NCBI RefSeq assembly: GCF_003702705.1
Contig: NZ_QZMN01000001.1
Location: 124,001-188,000 of the forward strand
Length of the DNA stretch: 64,000 bases
Source: Ornithinimicrobium cerasi
GTDB lineage: Bacteria; Actinomycetota; Actinomycetes; Actinomycetales; Dermatophilaceae
Direction: 5' to 3'
The number at the start of each line of letters is the position of its first letter. The stretch's first letter is position 1. Position numbers and translations under genes: made by a program. Positions 18,560 to 25,107 of the stretch are shown piece by piece. The notes beneath the pieces are model-generated. The model had not been told where the DNA came from. It saw nothing but the letters and a program-made list of their open reading frames with translations, and did not search any database.

Positions 18560-19705
18560 ATGGATCTGATGAGCCGTGCAGAGTTCGACGAGCTGGTGGG
18601 GGAGGGGGACGGGCCACGTGTGTCCTTGTTCGCTCCCACGCACCGGGTGAGCGGCACCAAGGAACGTGACCAGGACCGGCTGCGGTGGAAGAACCTGCTG
18701 ACGGCTGTGGAGCACGCGCTCGCCAAGGACGGGCTGGAGCGCCCGGAGGTCGAGGAGCTGCTGGCGCCGGCGCGCGAGCTGCACGGTGACGGGATGGCGT
18801 GGAGCCACATGGCCGAGGGGCTGGCGATGTTCCTGCGCAAGGGGTGGAGCGCGTCATACCGGGTGCCGCTGGACCTGCCCGAGCTCGGCGCGGTCGGACC
18901 GGGTTTCGTCCTGGCTCCGCTGCTGCCGCTGCTCACCGACCAGAACTACGTCGTCCTGACCCTGAGCCAGAAGAACGTGCGGGTGCTGCGGGGGAGCCGT
19001 GACCGCATCGGCGAGCTGGACCTGCCGTCGGTGCCGACGGCCTTCGACGACGTCTTCGAGGCGGACGGTCCGCAGAGCGACTCGGTGCCACGGCCCAATG
19101 CGTCGGGGCGGCTGGGGCGCACCGGCGCCGCGGTGTACTACGGCGCGGACGCGCTGGACAACGCGCACAAGGAGGACGTGGTCGAGTTCTTCCGCGAGGT
19201 GTCGCGCGGCGTCGAGGAGCACCTCGCCGGGCGCACGATCCCGATGATCCTCGCCGGGCTGCCGGAGTGGGTCGCGGTCTACCGTGAGCTCAGCTCCTAC
19301 CCGCACCTGGTGGACGGGGCGATCGAGCACAACCCCGACGGCATGAGTGACGACGACCTGCGGACCGGGGCGTGGCGGCTGGTCGAGGAGCGGCTGGCGG
19401 AGGAGGGCGCCAAGCTGGTGGACCGCTTCCACGAGCAGCGGGCTCGGGGGACGGGAGCGCTCGGTGCCGACCAGGTGCTCACCGCGGCCAACGAGGGGCG
19501 CGTCGACACGCTGATGATGACGGCCGACGGCTGTTACACGGGTGGCAACGGGGGCCCGGAGGTCGTGCTGCCCCTGCGGGACCGCGAGGACGTGTGCGGT
19601 CTCGCGGACGCCGCCGCCCGCGCGACCCTGCGCAACGGTGGTGCCGTGCGGGTGCTCCACGAGCTCCCGGGACACGCGCCCGTGGCGGCGGTGCTGAGGT
19701 ACTGA
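18560..19705 (+). CDS. baeRF-type (bacterial archaeo-eukaryotic release-factor-like) protein
   Basis: 381 residues from an ATG with ACAGGAGG upstream. The sequence MDLMSRAEFDELVGEGDGPRV begins a mixed domain, and YVVLTLSQKNVRVLRGSRD and FFREVSRGVEEHL occupy the middle. The last 130 residues have the eL30/L7Ae-like end (VDRFHEQRARGTGALGADQV, VDTLMMTADG, LRNGGAVRVLHE). The family has been proposed to act in translation stress or ribosome-associated reactions; its function is not established. The last 34 bases of the gene region are duplicated just downstream. Confidence 0.7.
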   Translation: MDLMSRAEFDELVGEGDGPRVSLFAPTHRVSGTKERDQDRLRWKNLLTAVEHALAKDGLERPEVEELLAPARELHGDGMAWSHMAEGLAMFLRKGWSASYRVPLDLPELGAVGPGFVLAPLLPLLTDQNYVVLTLSQKNVRVLRGSRDRIGELDLPSVPTAFDDVFEADGPQSDSVPRPNASGRLGRTGAAVYYGADALDNAHKEDVVEFFREVSRGVEEHLAGRTIPMILAGLPEWVAVYRELSSYPHLVDGAIEHNPDGMSDDDLRTGAWRLVEERLAEEGAKLVDRFHEQRARGTGALGADQVLTAANEGRVDTLMMTADGCYTGGNGGPEVVLPLRDREDVCGLADAAARATLRNGGAVRVLHELPGHAPVAAVLRY

Positions 19706-19749
19706 GCGCCCCGCGCCGGGACACGCGTCCGTGGCGGCGGTGCTGAGGT
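19667..19749 (+). repeat. 34-bp direct repeat duplicating the 3' end of the baeRF gene
   Basis: Copy one (19667-19700) covers the end of the coding sequence, starting CCGGGACACGCG and ending GGTGCTGAGGT. Copy two (19716-19749) differs at one base (C to T). Copies are offset by 49 bases. This resembles the target duplication left by insertion at a gene end or a slippage product, and matches the pattern at 24.8-25.1 kb. Confidence 0.85.
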
Positions 19750-19765
19750 CTTGGGCGCGTCTGCG

Positions 19766-19840
19766 GATGCCTGTGCCGGGCTGTCGTGTCGCAGGCGTCG
19801 CCCTGGCGTTCGTCGTGGCACGACAGCCGCGCACAGGCAT
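19766..19840. repeat. Palindromic hairpin repeat, copy A
   Basis: 75-bp imperfect palindrome: the left arm GATGCCTGTGCCGGGCTGTC mirrors the right arm GACAGCCGCGCACAGGCAT. It shares its arms with copy B at 20908-20982, in the same orientation. The two copies agree except for a variable 10-base stretch (19789-19798), one base near the left arm, and the extreme right end. Together they bracket the AbiEi/DUF559-like gene. Confidence 0.85.
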
Positions 19841-19855
19841 GGGTGCGCGCGCCGG

Positions 19856-19864
19856 TTGTCCACA
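19856..19864 (+). promoter_or_regulatory. Isolated DnaA-box match
   Basis: TTGTCCACA is an exact match to the actinobacterial DnaA-box consensus, 54 bases before the AbiEi-like gene start. A single box is not an origin; it could titrate DnaA, influence transcription or be chance. Confidence 0.35.
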
Positions 19865-19917
19865 GTCCGCGGCCGTCGCGCAGCGGCGGCAGCCCGCCCT
19901 CGGCCATGCTGCACCCC

Positions 19918-20886
19918 ATGTCACACCAGGAGCGAACCTTCCCCCACATCGAGGGCCAGCGCGGCCTGGCCACCGTGGCGCAGCTGCTCGAGGCCGGCTG
20001 GACGACGTCGTCCCTGCGGCATGCGCGCCGCACCCGCTTCCAGGAGCCGATGCCCCGCGTCGTGGCACCGCACCGGGGCCGCGTGGACGGCGCGACCGCC
20101 CTCGTCGCGGCCGCGCTCTGGGCGGGTCCGCGCGCCGTCCTCACCGGCGGGGTGGCTCTCGGCCGGCTGGGGATCGAGGTGCCGCCGCAGCACGTGGCGA
20201 CCTTCGTCATACCCGAGACCGGGCGCGCGCGTGAGCGCGCCCGGGCCCGGCTGATCCGGTCGACGCGTGAGCTGGAGGTCGTACGCCGCTCCGGGCCGGT
20301 GGTGGTCACCGGTGCCGCGCGGGCGATCGCGGATGCTGCCGTCCACGAGTCGCACCGCCCCGAGGATCTCGAGCACTGGTCGATCACGGTGCTCCAGCGG
20401 GGGCTCACCGCGCCCGGGGTGCTCGAGCAGGAGCTGTGGCTGCGCCCCCGCGCCAAGGTCGAGGCGGTATGGCGTGGGCTCGCCGGGTTCGTCGACGGCG
20501 CCTGGTCGCGCCCCGAGGTGGCGCTGCGCAGGGAGGTCGACGGCGACGGCGGCTTCCCGCCGCTGCTGACGAACTGCCGGCTCGAGACCCTCGCCGGGCA
20601 GCTCCTCGGGACGCCGGACGGCTACCTCGAGGAGGCGGGGACCGCGATCCAGGTGCACTCCCGGGCGCACCACCAGGGGTTCGACGACGCCGGCGGCGAC
20701 CTGTGGGGTCGCACCGTGGAGAAGGACGGCGACCTCGTGGCGGCGGGGGTGCGGGTGGTCGGGGTGACGCCGTGGACCCTGTACACGAAGCCGCGGCGGT
20801 TCCTCAACCTGCTCCGCAAGGTGGTCGCGCTCGGGTTGGAGTCGCCGCGACCCGCTGTCCGGGTCGTCCGGCGCGACGCCGCGTGA
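19918..20886 (+). CDS. AbiEi-like N-terminal domain fused to degenerate DUF559/Vsr-like domain
   Basis: 322 residues from ATG 19918; ATG 19906 is an alternative. The N-terminal ~90 residues (RGLATVAQLLEAGWTTSSLRH, then RVVAPHRGRV) look like the winged-helix AbiEi antitoxin-type domain found in many actinobacterial proteins. The C-terminal region (about 245-305) follows the DUF559/Vsr endonuclease-like pattern: LEEAGTAIQVHSRAHHQGF, then DGDLVAAGVRVVGVTP. The usual acidic residue of the strand E-x-D is replaced (Q-V-H), so nuclease activity is doubtful. No partner toxin gene is adjacent. The gene sits between two matching hairpins inside an otherwise core region, suggesting an inserted cassette. 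Confidence 0.6.
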   Translation: MSHQERTFPHIEGQRGLATVAQLLEAGWTTSSLRHARRTRFQEPMPRVVAPHRGRVDGATALVAAALWAGPRAVLTGGVALGRLGIEVPPQHVATFVIPETGRARERARARLIRSTRELEVVRRSGPVVVTGAARAIADAAVHESHRPEDLEHWSITVLQRGLTAPGVLEQELWLRPRAKVEAVWRGLAGFVDGAWSRPEVALRREVDGDGGFPPLLTNCRLETLAGQLLGTPDGYLEEAGTAIQVHSRAHHQGFDDAGGDLWGRTVEKDGDLVAAGVRVVGVTPWTLYTKPRRFLNLLRKVVALGLESPRPAVRVVRRDAA

Positions 20887-20907
20887 GGTGAGGACAGCGG
20901 CATACCT

Positions 20908-20982
20908 GATGCCTGTGCCTGGCTGTCGTGCCACGGTCAACGCCCTGGCGTTCGTCGTGGCACGACAGCCGCGCACATCGAT
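20908..20982. repeat. Palindromic hairpin repeat, copy B
   Basis: Second copy of the 75-bp element. Its core pairs GGCTGTCGTGCCACG with CGTGGCACGACAGCC, and the flanking AACGCC/GGCGTT extends the stem to about 24 bp around a CTG loop. The hairpin starts 22 bases after the AbiEi-like stop codon, so it may also act as that gene's terminator. Confidence 0.85.
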
Positions 20983-23135: not shown

Positions 23136-24839
23136 GTGCTGCTGCTCGTCCCCCTGGCCCTGGTGCTGAAGTCCGTGATCGTGGCGGCGGCCGTGCTCGA
23201 GCCCGACGGCTGGGCGGCGCTGGTCGTGCTCACGGCCGTCCCCCTCCTTCTCCTGCTGCTCAGCCCGGCCCTGCTCCTGCACGGGCGGGCGCGCACGGCA
23301 TACCTCGTCGGCGTCGACCTCCTCGTCACCCTCCTGCTCGTGGGAGACCTCGTCAACGCACGCGTCTCCGGCCGCCTGCTCAGCGTGCACATGCTCAGCG
23401 CCGCCGGCACCTTCGAGGGGCTCGGGTCCTCGGTGCTGGACGCCGCCGACTGGCCCGACCTGCTGCTCTTCGCCGACCTCCTCGCCGTGGCGGTGCTGGC
23501 GCTCGCCGCCCGCGGGCGGGACCGGCGCGCGGCACGGACGGGCTCCGTCCCCCGGCTCCGGGCACGGGGTCGGGCGGTGGCCGTCGTGGCCCCCGTGGCA
23601 CTGCTTGCCTTCGTCGCCCAGCTGCTCCTCCAGACCTCCGACCCGGGGCTGCGCGTCGCCGTGCTCTCCCCGCTCGGGACGCACGCCCACCAGGCCTGGG
23701 ACCAGCTCATCGACGACAACGAGGCCCTGACCCCGGAGGAGCGGGAGCGGGTTTCCGACTGGTTCGCGGCCAACGCCGCCTACCACCAGGCCGCTCCCGA
23801 GCACGAGGACCTCGTCGGGCTGCTCGAGGGGCGGGACGTCTACCTCGTGGTCCTCGAGTCGCTGGAGCAGGTGGTGCTCGGGGCGCGACCGTACGGGCAG
23901 GAGGTGACGCCGACCCTCAACAGCTGGGTGGAGGAGAGCCTCGTCTTCGACGCCGTGCAGGAGCAGGTGCGCGACGGCAACAGCTCCGACGCCGAGCTGC
24001 TCATGCTCGCCGGGGTCTACCCGCTGCGGTCCGGTGCGGCTTTCCTGAGGTTCCCGGACAACGCGGGCTACACCACACTGCCCGGCCTGCTGGCCGAGGA
24101 GGGCTACCGGCCCGTGGCGCTGCACGCCGACGCTGCGACCTTCTGGAACCGGCACGTCGTCTACCCGCACCTGGGCTTCGAGCGCTACGTGGCCGAGGAC
24201 GACTTCGCGGTGGGCGGGCGCGAGGTGGGGATGGGGCTGGCCGACGAGGACCTCTTCGACCAGGCGCTCCGCGAGGTGGACCGGCTGCCCTCGCCGCGGT
24301 TCCTGCACCTCGTCACGCTGACCTCGCACACGCCCTGGCACCTGCCGGAGGACCTGCAGGGGCTGGAGCTGCCGGACGACGACGCGACCAGCCGCTATCT
24401 GCAGTCGGTGCACTACGCCGACGCCGCGCTGGGCGAGTTCGCCCGGCAGCTCGACGAGCGGGGGCTCCTCGACACGGCGGCGATCGTCGTGGTGGGCGAC
24501 CACCGGGGCCCCCACAAGTACGCCCGCGAGGACGAGCGCTGGCTCACCGGCGACGACGGCCGGGTGCCCTTCCTCGTGCACGTGCCGGGGATGGACGGCC
24601 GCCGGATCTCCACCCCCGGCGGTCAGGTCGACGTGCTGCCGACCCTGGCGCAGCTGCTCGGGATCCCGGCCGAGCGCTACGCGGGGTCGGTGATGGGCCG
24701 GACCCTGCTCGGCACGCACTCGGGGTCGGCCGTGACCCCCGACGGCACGGTGCTGCCCGGCGCAGACGGCGCCGGGCAACTGGCCGAGGCCTACGAGATC
24801 GCCGACCTCGCGGTGTCGGGGGACTGGTTCACGCAGTGA
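23136..24839 (+). CDS. LTA-synthase-like membrane sulfatase/phosphoglycerol transferase
   Basis: 567 residues from GTG 23136, 12 bases after the RDD stop, so probably one operon. Four hydrophobic helices occupy residues 1-165. The extracellular alkaline-phosphatase-fold domain begins with DVYLVVLESLEQVV. The expected metal and nucleophile motif reads RDGNSSDAELLML; in LtaS the segment is GKTSDSE, so the nucleophile Thr is Ser here. HADAATFWNRH, LTSHTPWHLP and VVGDHRGPHKYA provide the other metal ligands. It likely transfers or hydrolyses phosphoglycerol or similar groups on envelope polymers; the substrate is unknown. The last 52 coding bases recur exactly at 25054-25105. Confidence 0.8.
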   Translation: MLLLVPLALVLKSVIVAAAVLEPDGWAALVVLTAVPLLLLLLSPALLLHGRARTAYLVGVDLLVTLLLVGDLVNARVSGRLLSVHMLSAAGTFEGLGSSVLDAADWPDLLLFADLLAVAVLALAARGRDRRAARTGSVPRLRARGRAVAVVAPVALLAFVAQLLLQTSDPGLRVAVLSPLGTHAHQAWDQLIDDNEALTPEERERVSDWFAANAAYHQAAPEHEDLVGLLEGRDVYLVVLESLEQVVLGARPYGQEVTPTLNSWVEESLVFDAVQEQVRDGNSSDAELLMLAGVYPLRSGAAFLRFPDNAGYTTLPGLLAEEGYRPVALHADAATFWNRHVVYPHLGFERYVAEDDFAVGGREVGMGLADEDLFDQALREVDRLPSPRFLHLVTLTSHTPWHLPEDLQGLELPDDDATSRYLQSVHYADAALGEFARQLDERGLLDTAAIVVVGDHRGPHKYAREDERWLTGDDGRVPFLVHVPGMDGRRISTPGGQVDVLPTLAQLLGIPAERYAGSVMGRTLLGTHSGSAVTPDGTVLPGADGAGQLAEAYEIADLAVSGDWFTQ

Positions 24840-24841
24840 CC
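24788..24841 (+). repeat. 54-bp direct repeat, original copy at the sulfatase 3' end
   Basis: Covers the end of the sulfatase coding sequence including its TGA and two further bases. It is identical over 54 bases to 25054-25107. It begins GGCCTACGAG and ends CACGCAGTGACC. Confidence 0.95.
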
Positions 24842-24854
24842 CGGCGCGCCGTGG

Positions 24855-25041
24855 GTGCATAACCGGTGCACCTGCGGGGGTCGTACACGGCATACCTGCG
24901 GTGGGGCGTGCATAACCGGTGCACGTGCGGGGGTCGTGTGCGGCATACCCGCGGTGGGGCGTGCATAACCCGTGCACCTGCGGGGGTCGTGCACGGCATA
25001 CCTGCGGTTCGGCGTGCACAACCGGTGCACGTGCGGGGTCG
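24855..25041. repeat. 53-bp tandem repeat, about 3.5 units
   Basis: Units start at 24855, 24908, 24961 and 25014, the last truncated after 28 bases. Each begins GTGCATAACCGGTGCAC (an inverted repeat, GTGCA with TGCAC) and continues with TGCGGGGGTCGT and the 8-mer GGCATACC. Units differ at a few positions. Repeats are contiguous with no unique spacers. No convincing gene is encoded. The array is flanked by the two copies of the sulfatase gene end. Confidence 0.95.
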
Positions 25042-25053
25042 CGCGCTGGCGAC

Positions 25054-25107
25054 GGCCTACGAGATCGCCGACCTCGCGGTGTCGGGGGACTGGTTCACGC
25101 AGTGACC
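25054..25107 (+). repeat. 54-bp direct repeat, downstream copy
   Basis: Exact copy of 24788-24841. Its palindromic end TCACGCAGTGA supplies the stop codon of the convergent membrane-protein gene at 25095-25799, so the copy defines that gene's C-terminus. With the first copy it brackets 212 bases made up mostly of the tandem array, as an inserted element would. Confidence 0.95.

Follow-up and report, generated by a model that had tools for sequence, protein, structure and literature searches.

A palindrome-bracketed gene for an AbiEi-like and Vsr-like protein in Ornithinimicrobium cerasi: a candidate source unit of a REP-like system of dispersed palindromes

In the draft genome of Ornithinimicrobium cerasi (G000; 3.83 Mb, 87 contigs), a single gene is enclosed by two palindromes of about 72 bp. 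This arrangement raises the question of what the palindromes are for: do they delimit a cassette whose cargo is moved, as a first-pass annotation had proposed, or do they move themselves, with the enclosed gene as their partner? We analysed the locus within a window of 64,000 nucleotides, which is part of contig 1 (Table 1). The upstream neighbour of the gene belongs to the baeRF family and the downstream neighbour is glnA in convergent orientation. Just 5' of palindrome A, a 43-nt stretch from the 3' terminus of this baeRF-family gene is duplicated in tandem (19667-19758, spacing 49, 91% identical). Further downstream, the region 24780-25107 contains a 78-nt repeat in three overlapping copies with 53-nt spacing (24855-25038) and the end of a sulfatase-family gene with a 62-nt duplication 266 nt downstream.

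Table 1. Features of the palindrome-bracketed locus, in positions of the 64,000-nucleotide window.
Feature	Position	Strand	Basis
Palindrome A, 72-bp unit	19768..19839	+	Repeat match, folding; R1 model 68 bits (+), 60 bits (-)
Gene, AbiEi-like and Vsr/EDxHD-like protein, 322 aa	19918..20886	+	Sequence and ORF, orthologs, AbiEi match, AbiEi-DUF559 profile, fold
Nuclease-like domain, about residues 191-307	20491..20841	+	Alignment of 28 sequences, profile, fold
Palindrome B, 72-bp unit	20910..20981	+	Repeat match, folding; R1 model 74 bits (+), 66 bits (-)

Palindrome A consists of an outer TGTGC/GCACA, a middle GCTGTCGTG-type block, an inner block and variable spacers, and palindrome B belongs to the same family in the same orientation. 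As the first-pass annotation had claimed, the two form a direct repeat around one gene (19766-19835 versus 20908-20977; 90% identity over 70 nt, start-to-start distance 1142), and their differences are about as described, namely several clustered positions next to one arm, together with a single base in an outer arm. Both fold far more stably than shuffled sequences (z of -4.2 and -5.4), and none of 200 shuffles equalled either palindrome; together with the dispersed copies described below, this excludes chance hairpins. Comparison with known RNA families gave only sub-threshold miRNA matches, which were taken as chance.

The gene starts at the ATG in Table 1, with an in-frame ATG at 19906 as alternative, and residue numbers are counted from codon 19921. 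It is a real gene, since orthologs with 66-70% protein identity likewise adjoin glnA; this neighbourhood is common to five species (O. cerasi, G017, G004, G001 and G039), and the G001 ortholog contains an in-frame stop. Both domain assignments of the first-pass annotation held. The N-terminus matches AbiEi in PADLOC (E 6e-9, residues 5-169), and the C-terminus is DUF559/Vsr-like according to fold and to profile comparison with AbiEi-DUF559 paralogs of the same genus (hhalign 99.6%, E 6e-25, 285 columns) rather than to Pfam. Indeed, the window protein matched no Pfam family at E<=1 and had no significant match in NCBIfam or PHROGs, and its relatives gave only sub-threshold matches to Pfam AbiEi_4, while all three AbiEi-DUF559 paralogs scanned matched AbiEi_4 (one below the cut-off) and two of them DUF559, below the cut-off. 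A sequence search against solved structures returned two matches (E 0.6 and 1.4), which were taken as chance.

An AlphaFold model computed with 28 sequences (pLDDT 90.5, pTM 0.83) predicts an AbiEi-like part (residues 1-191) followed by a Vsr/EDxHD-homing-endonuclease-like fold (residues 194-307) that matches 3hrl, I-Bth0305I and Vsr; this comparison, a second look at Foldseek matches, speaks to fold and not to function. In the nuclease-like domain, E199, D233, Q244, S247 and H251 are invariant among the 28 sequences and H246 is nearly so. The usual acidic residue is missing, as had been noted: in all 28, the sequence alignment places Q244 at the position of the DUF559 glutamate, and the family reads Q-V-H-S-xxx-H where its AbiEi-DUF559 paralogs have E-V-D-G-xxx-H or the like. 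The putative active site, atypical in its Q for E, leans towards Vsr, since in Vsr, according to the available text of PMC551604, (D/E)XK has given way to FxH and an additional His.

The palindromes are not confined to the locus. With palindrome A as query, BLAST returned 37 matches in the O. cerasi genome (both strands counted), and a covariance model (R1), whose training set comprised 35 gene-flanking and seven dispersed palindromes, gave 46 matches at at least 23 places, to which BLAST adds one more (C1:11757), so that the total is at least 24. The other 22 of these 24 copies lie outside the locus, are all unpaired, and are never less than 12 kb from one another; the first-pass annotation had itself named many unpaired copies as an outcome that would speak against a simple cassette. 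Similarly, R1 detected at least 20 places in O. pekingense (G001), at least nine in G004 and at least 12 in O. tianjinense (G017), two of which bracket the gene in each genome. Because the training palindromes came from the same species and were chosen for symmetry, and because 150 candidates were scored per genome, the place counts are lower bounds, and both the zeros in gene-less genomes and the covariation, strong in number but derived from symmetry-picked rows, are partly built in.

Across 65 copies from four species, the palindrome is composed of an outer GTGC block, a variable spacer, a long middle block, a second variable spacer and an inner block; the spacer positions mostly pair in only 34-49% of copies, and the consensuses of the four species end in GTGC/GCAC, with no GTAG-type tag present. 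Copies of one species are on average identical to a degree of 0.67 in G000, 0.61 in G017 and 0.76 in both G004 and G001, versus 0.56-0.62 between species, the species signal being weak in G017, whose copies share 0.61 among themselves and 0.56-0.60 with those of other species. A Dcm-like CCWGG in the loop was considered as a link to Vsr and dropped, as it occurs in only 22 of the 65 palindromes and in one of 20 in G001. For 77 copies in eleven genomes, placed with a simple codon-usage gene caller, with shared sites counted every time, 42 were between convergent, 21 between tandem and five between divergent genes, eight were intragenic and one was at an edge. The eight intragenic copies represent five distinct sites, four of the copies being at a single one (the CydDC site, see below).

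The association between gene and repeat extends to other members of the family. Palindromes enclose the glnA-adjacent orthologs of G017, G004 and G001, and that of G039 has matching flanks as well. Matching repeats also surround many homologs from Serinicoccus, Kribbia and Propionibacteriaceae, and throughout, each species and usually each paralog has a repeat sequence of its own. In 26 of 36 family loci (25 once the start of L052 is corrected), the upstream and downstream flanks resemble each other more than those of any of the 52 control genes in the window, and in ten (L042, L045, L050, L055, L059, L070, L071, L075, L076 and L093) they do not exceed the control maximum. When possible partners of an upstream flank are ranked by similarity, the downstream flank of the same locus comes first in 23 of 34 loci and falls among the top three in 29; flank pairs of clade A are direct, and those of more distant members are often mutually inverted (these counts and the orientation comparison include L052 at its uncorrected start). 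In G048, a repeat pair was spotted by repeat search and only then found to enclose a gene of the family. The similarity between upstream and downstream flanks also exceeds the control maximum in two of eight ordinary AbiEi-DUF559 loci (L099 and L103), and the link to repeats may therefore reach beyond this clade.

Specificity was compared within genomes that have several paralogs. The two paralogs of G045 match their own flanks with values of 66.5 and 48 versus 19 and 20 across, those of G041 with 69 and 31.5 versus 30.5 and 18, and each of the three in Propioniciclava sinopodophylli matches its own (44-59 versus 16-23 across), with further matches of each repeat type in that genome. The picture is blurred in the same-genome pair L066/L059 (30.5 across), and in G007 one locus is specific (L041, 39 versus 17) and the other is not (L055, 19 with its own and 19 with the other flank). 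No further repeat matches were obtained in the genome of L070 with a query set that did not include L070's own repeat. R1 gave a single weak match (17 bits) on nine Propionibacteriaceae loci; the repeats there are of a different type, so that the model does not count them.

Gene and palindrome also tend to occur together. Among 32 genomes of the genus, 15 possess a full-length clade-A gene, and all 15 have at least eight R1 matches (8-46, both strands counted), as opposed to one of the 17 genomes without it (Fisher p = 5.7e-8, uncorrected for relatedness or for R1 training, related genomes not being independent). Five genomes with only a clade-B relative have 14, 2, 1, 0 and 0 matches, and the twelve without any full-length member have seven in G011, which keeps a remnant of the gene, one in G008 and none in the other ten. 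The 92%-complete assembly of G003 holds 14 R1 matches at seven places (e.g. L207 and L212) and no clade-A gene, which has either been lost or is missing from the draft. No relatives were found among plasmids, phages and viral contigs, although such elements could still have contributed to the spread.

These patterns bear on the possibility that an unrelated transposase, for example of the Y1/RAYT type, disperses the palindromes in trans, and that the gene merely uses them as operators or terminators. AbiEi proteins bind inverted repeats, and the apparent preference of the copies for 3' ends, above all between convergent genes (42 of 77), would agree with such a use; against it stand the paralogs of single genomes, mostly bracketed by their own repeat type with further copies of its own, and the genomes lacking the gene, most of which gave no palindrome match. 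We consider this explanation unlikely. More plausibly, the gene between the palindromes encodes their own partner protein, which makes it a good candidate for the spreader of the repeats.

Empty sites, which the first-pass annotation had suggested looking for in relatives, were found. In G044, a palindrome at a gene end between convergent genes (L114) is absent from all four relatives that align across the site (six genomes searched), G044 having about 110 bp extra with blurred ends. In G041, a palindrome lies in frame within an ABC-transporter ATPase gene (L118) and is absent from six of six relatives; the empty site reads TGCACCA in G007 and G012, resembling the palindrome end, and differs by one or two bases in the other four, so that a target rule for insertion is only suggested. 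A second GC-rich repeat at about 1024-1125 of L118, unlike the palindrome studied here and with several dozen matches in G007, is possibly another dispersed family. The linker of a fused CydDC transporter contains the palindrome in G007, G041, G000, G001, G004 (where the translated frame shifts near it) and G017, and lacks it in G022, G040, G045 and G012. Of the 22 dispersed sites of O. cerasi, two correspond to positions that are occupied by a palindrome in another species too; in the Serinicoccus group, one site is common to six species and one to five (both by blastn on fetched loci). Finally, a palindrome pair in G007 surrounds an unrelated short gene (L180, 11400-12098), G022 having a single palindrome there and G012 none, a series explained equally well by cassette-like behaviour and by two independent insertions. 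Overall, the empty sites support the view that, over evolutionary time, members of this palindrome family come to occupy new positions.

The palindromes might alternatively serve the host as binding sites in the chromosome, with a function in structure, repair or transcription termination, and be read by a domesticated protein while moving only slowly and incidentally. The position of the gene beside glnA in five species, the CydDC linker palindrome in six, the distribution of copies at 3' ends and the lack of relatives among plasmids, phages and viral contigs could be understood in this way, but sites that are mostly lineage-specific among the fetched loci, empty in relatives and in eight of 77 copies (five distinct sites) within genes render it improbable as well. 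That the palindromes are recombination sites which capture and release arbitrary genes, comparable to integron attC cassettes in the palindrome-bracketed gene, is most improbable: the three-state site of G007, G022 and G012 would suit it, but the other copies in O. cerasi are unpaired, and the genes found between pairs in several genera are almost without exception members of one family, with one other cargo seen. Of the small mobile cassette first envisaged, palindromes that reach new sites and are tied to the gene are retained, while arbitrary cargo and a trans-acting recombinase find no support, given the 22 unpaired copies, the recurrence of one gene family and its place next to glnA in five species; the best reading is that mainly the palindrome moves and not a cargo gene.

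In its arrangement, the closest known kind is the REP/RAYT system (REPtron), with a different protein. The available text of PMC2817692 and PMC3733652 describes features that are shared: a gene placed between two copies of a palindrome that recurs elsewhere in the genome, gene types specific to their repeats, and copies near gene 3' ends and occasionally inside genes. REPs measure 20-40 bp, carry GTAG, usually number over 100 and flank RAYT genes in inverted orientation, whereas the palindromes described here measure about 62-72 bp, end in GTGC without GTAG, were found in tens of copies and form direct pairs in clade A. The AbiEi plus Vsr-like protein is not a Y1/HUH tyrosine transposase (PF01797), given that it matches no Pfam family at E<=1 and aligns with AbiEi-DUF559 proteins along 285 columns in the profile comparison. 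Rickettsia palindromic elements and other MITEs are likewise short palindromes, some in frame within genes; here, eight of 77 copies lie inside genes, of which L118 and L012 were inspected closely. For those elements the available text of PMC10969869 names no dedicated protein, in contrast to the bracketed candidate gene. I-Bth0305I and Vsr share the predicted fold of the C-terminal half; they differ from the present protein, which has the pattern D...Q-x-H-S-xxx-H, is fused to AbiEi, and is linked to dispersed palindromes instead of introns or mismatch repair. The AbiEi domain and the profile homology connect it with AbiEi antitoxins and AbiEi-DUF559 proteins, but the DUF559 acidic motif is replaced and, unlike in AbiE type IV toxin-antitoxin systems, the immediate neighbours include no AbiEii toxin gene.

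Comparison among genomes documents dispersal, lineage-specific presence and absence, matching flanks, co-occurrence of gene and palindrome, and mostly paralog-specific repeats. We think it rather probable that a REP-like system of dispersed palindromes has its source unit here, with the AbiEi plus Vsr-like protein as the partner that drives dispersal. Such a system would comprise the unit palindrome-gene-palindrome and stand-alone palindromes across the chromosome. RAYT/REP units serve as the model for the proposed mechanism: reading the palindrome arms would fall to the AbiEi half, and a protein dimer may recognise the core of roughly 62 bp with its two-fold symmetry, probably in duplex form and possibly as an extruded hairpin; a dimer of I-Bth0305I acts on a target of nearly 60 bp, which suits a core of this length. 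Nicking or cutting at the palindrome, presumably by this protein rather than another enzyme, would lead to copies at new sites, which may persist best where insertions are tolerated, for instance where two convergent genes meet at their 3' ends.

Among the records listed by searches of an open-access library, which covers few subscription papers, we found no report of an AbiEi/DUF559/Vsr-type protein linked to dispersed palindromes. There is, in our estimate, an even chance that the family represents a new class of DNA-mobility enzyme, in which the fusion of an AbiEi-derived reader with a Vsr/EDxHD-type nuclease disperses its own long palindrome without a Y1, DDE, serine or tyrosine recombinase, with repeated co-diversification of paralogs and palindromes across Actinobacteria. 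If so, a nuclease partner unrelated to RAYTs would represent a second way of solving the same problem and a testable enzyme, and a new role may exist for AbiEi-DUF559-type proteins, which on account of their AbiEi half are otherwise classed with toxin-antitoxin or defence systems.
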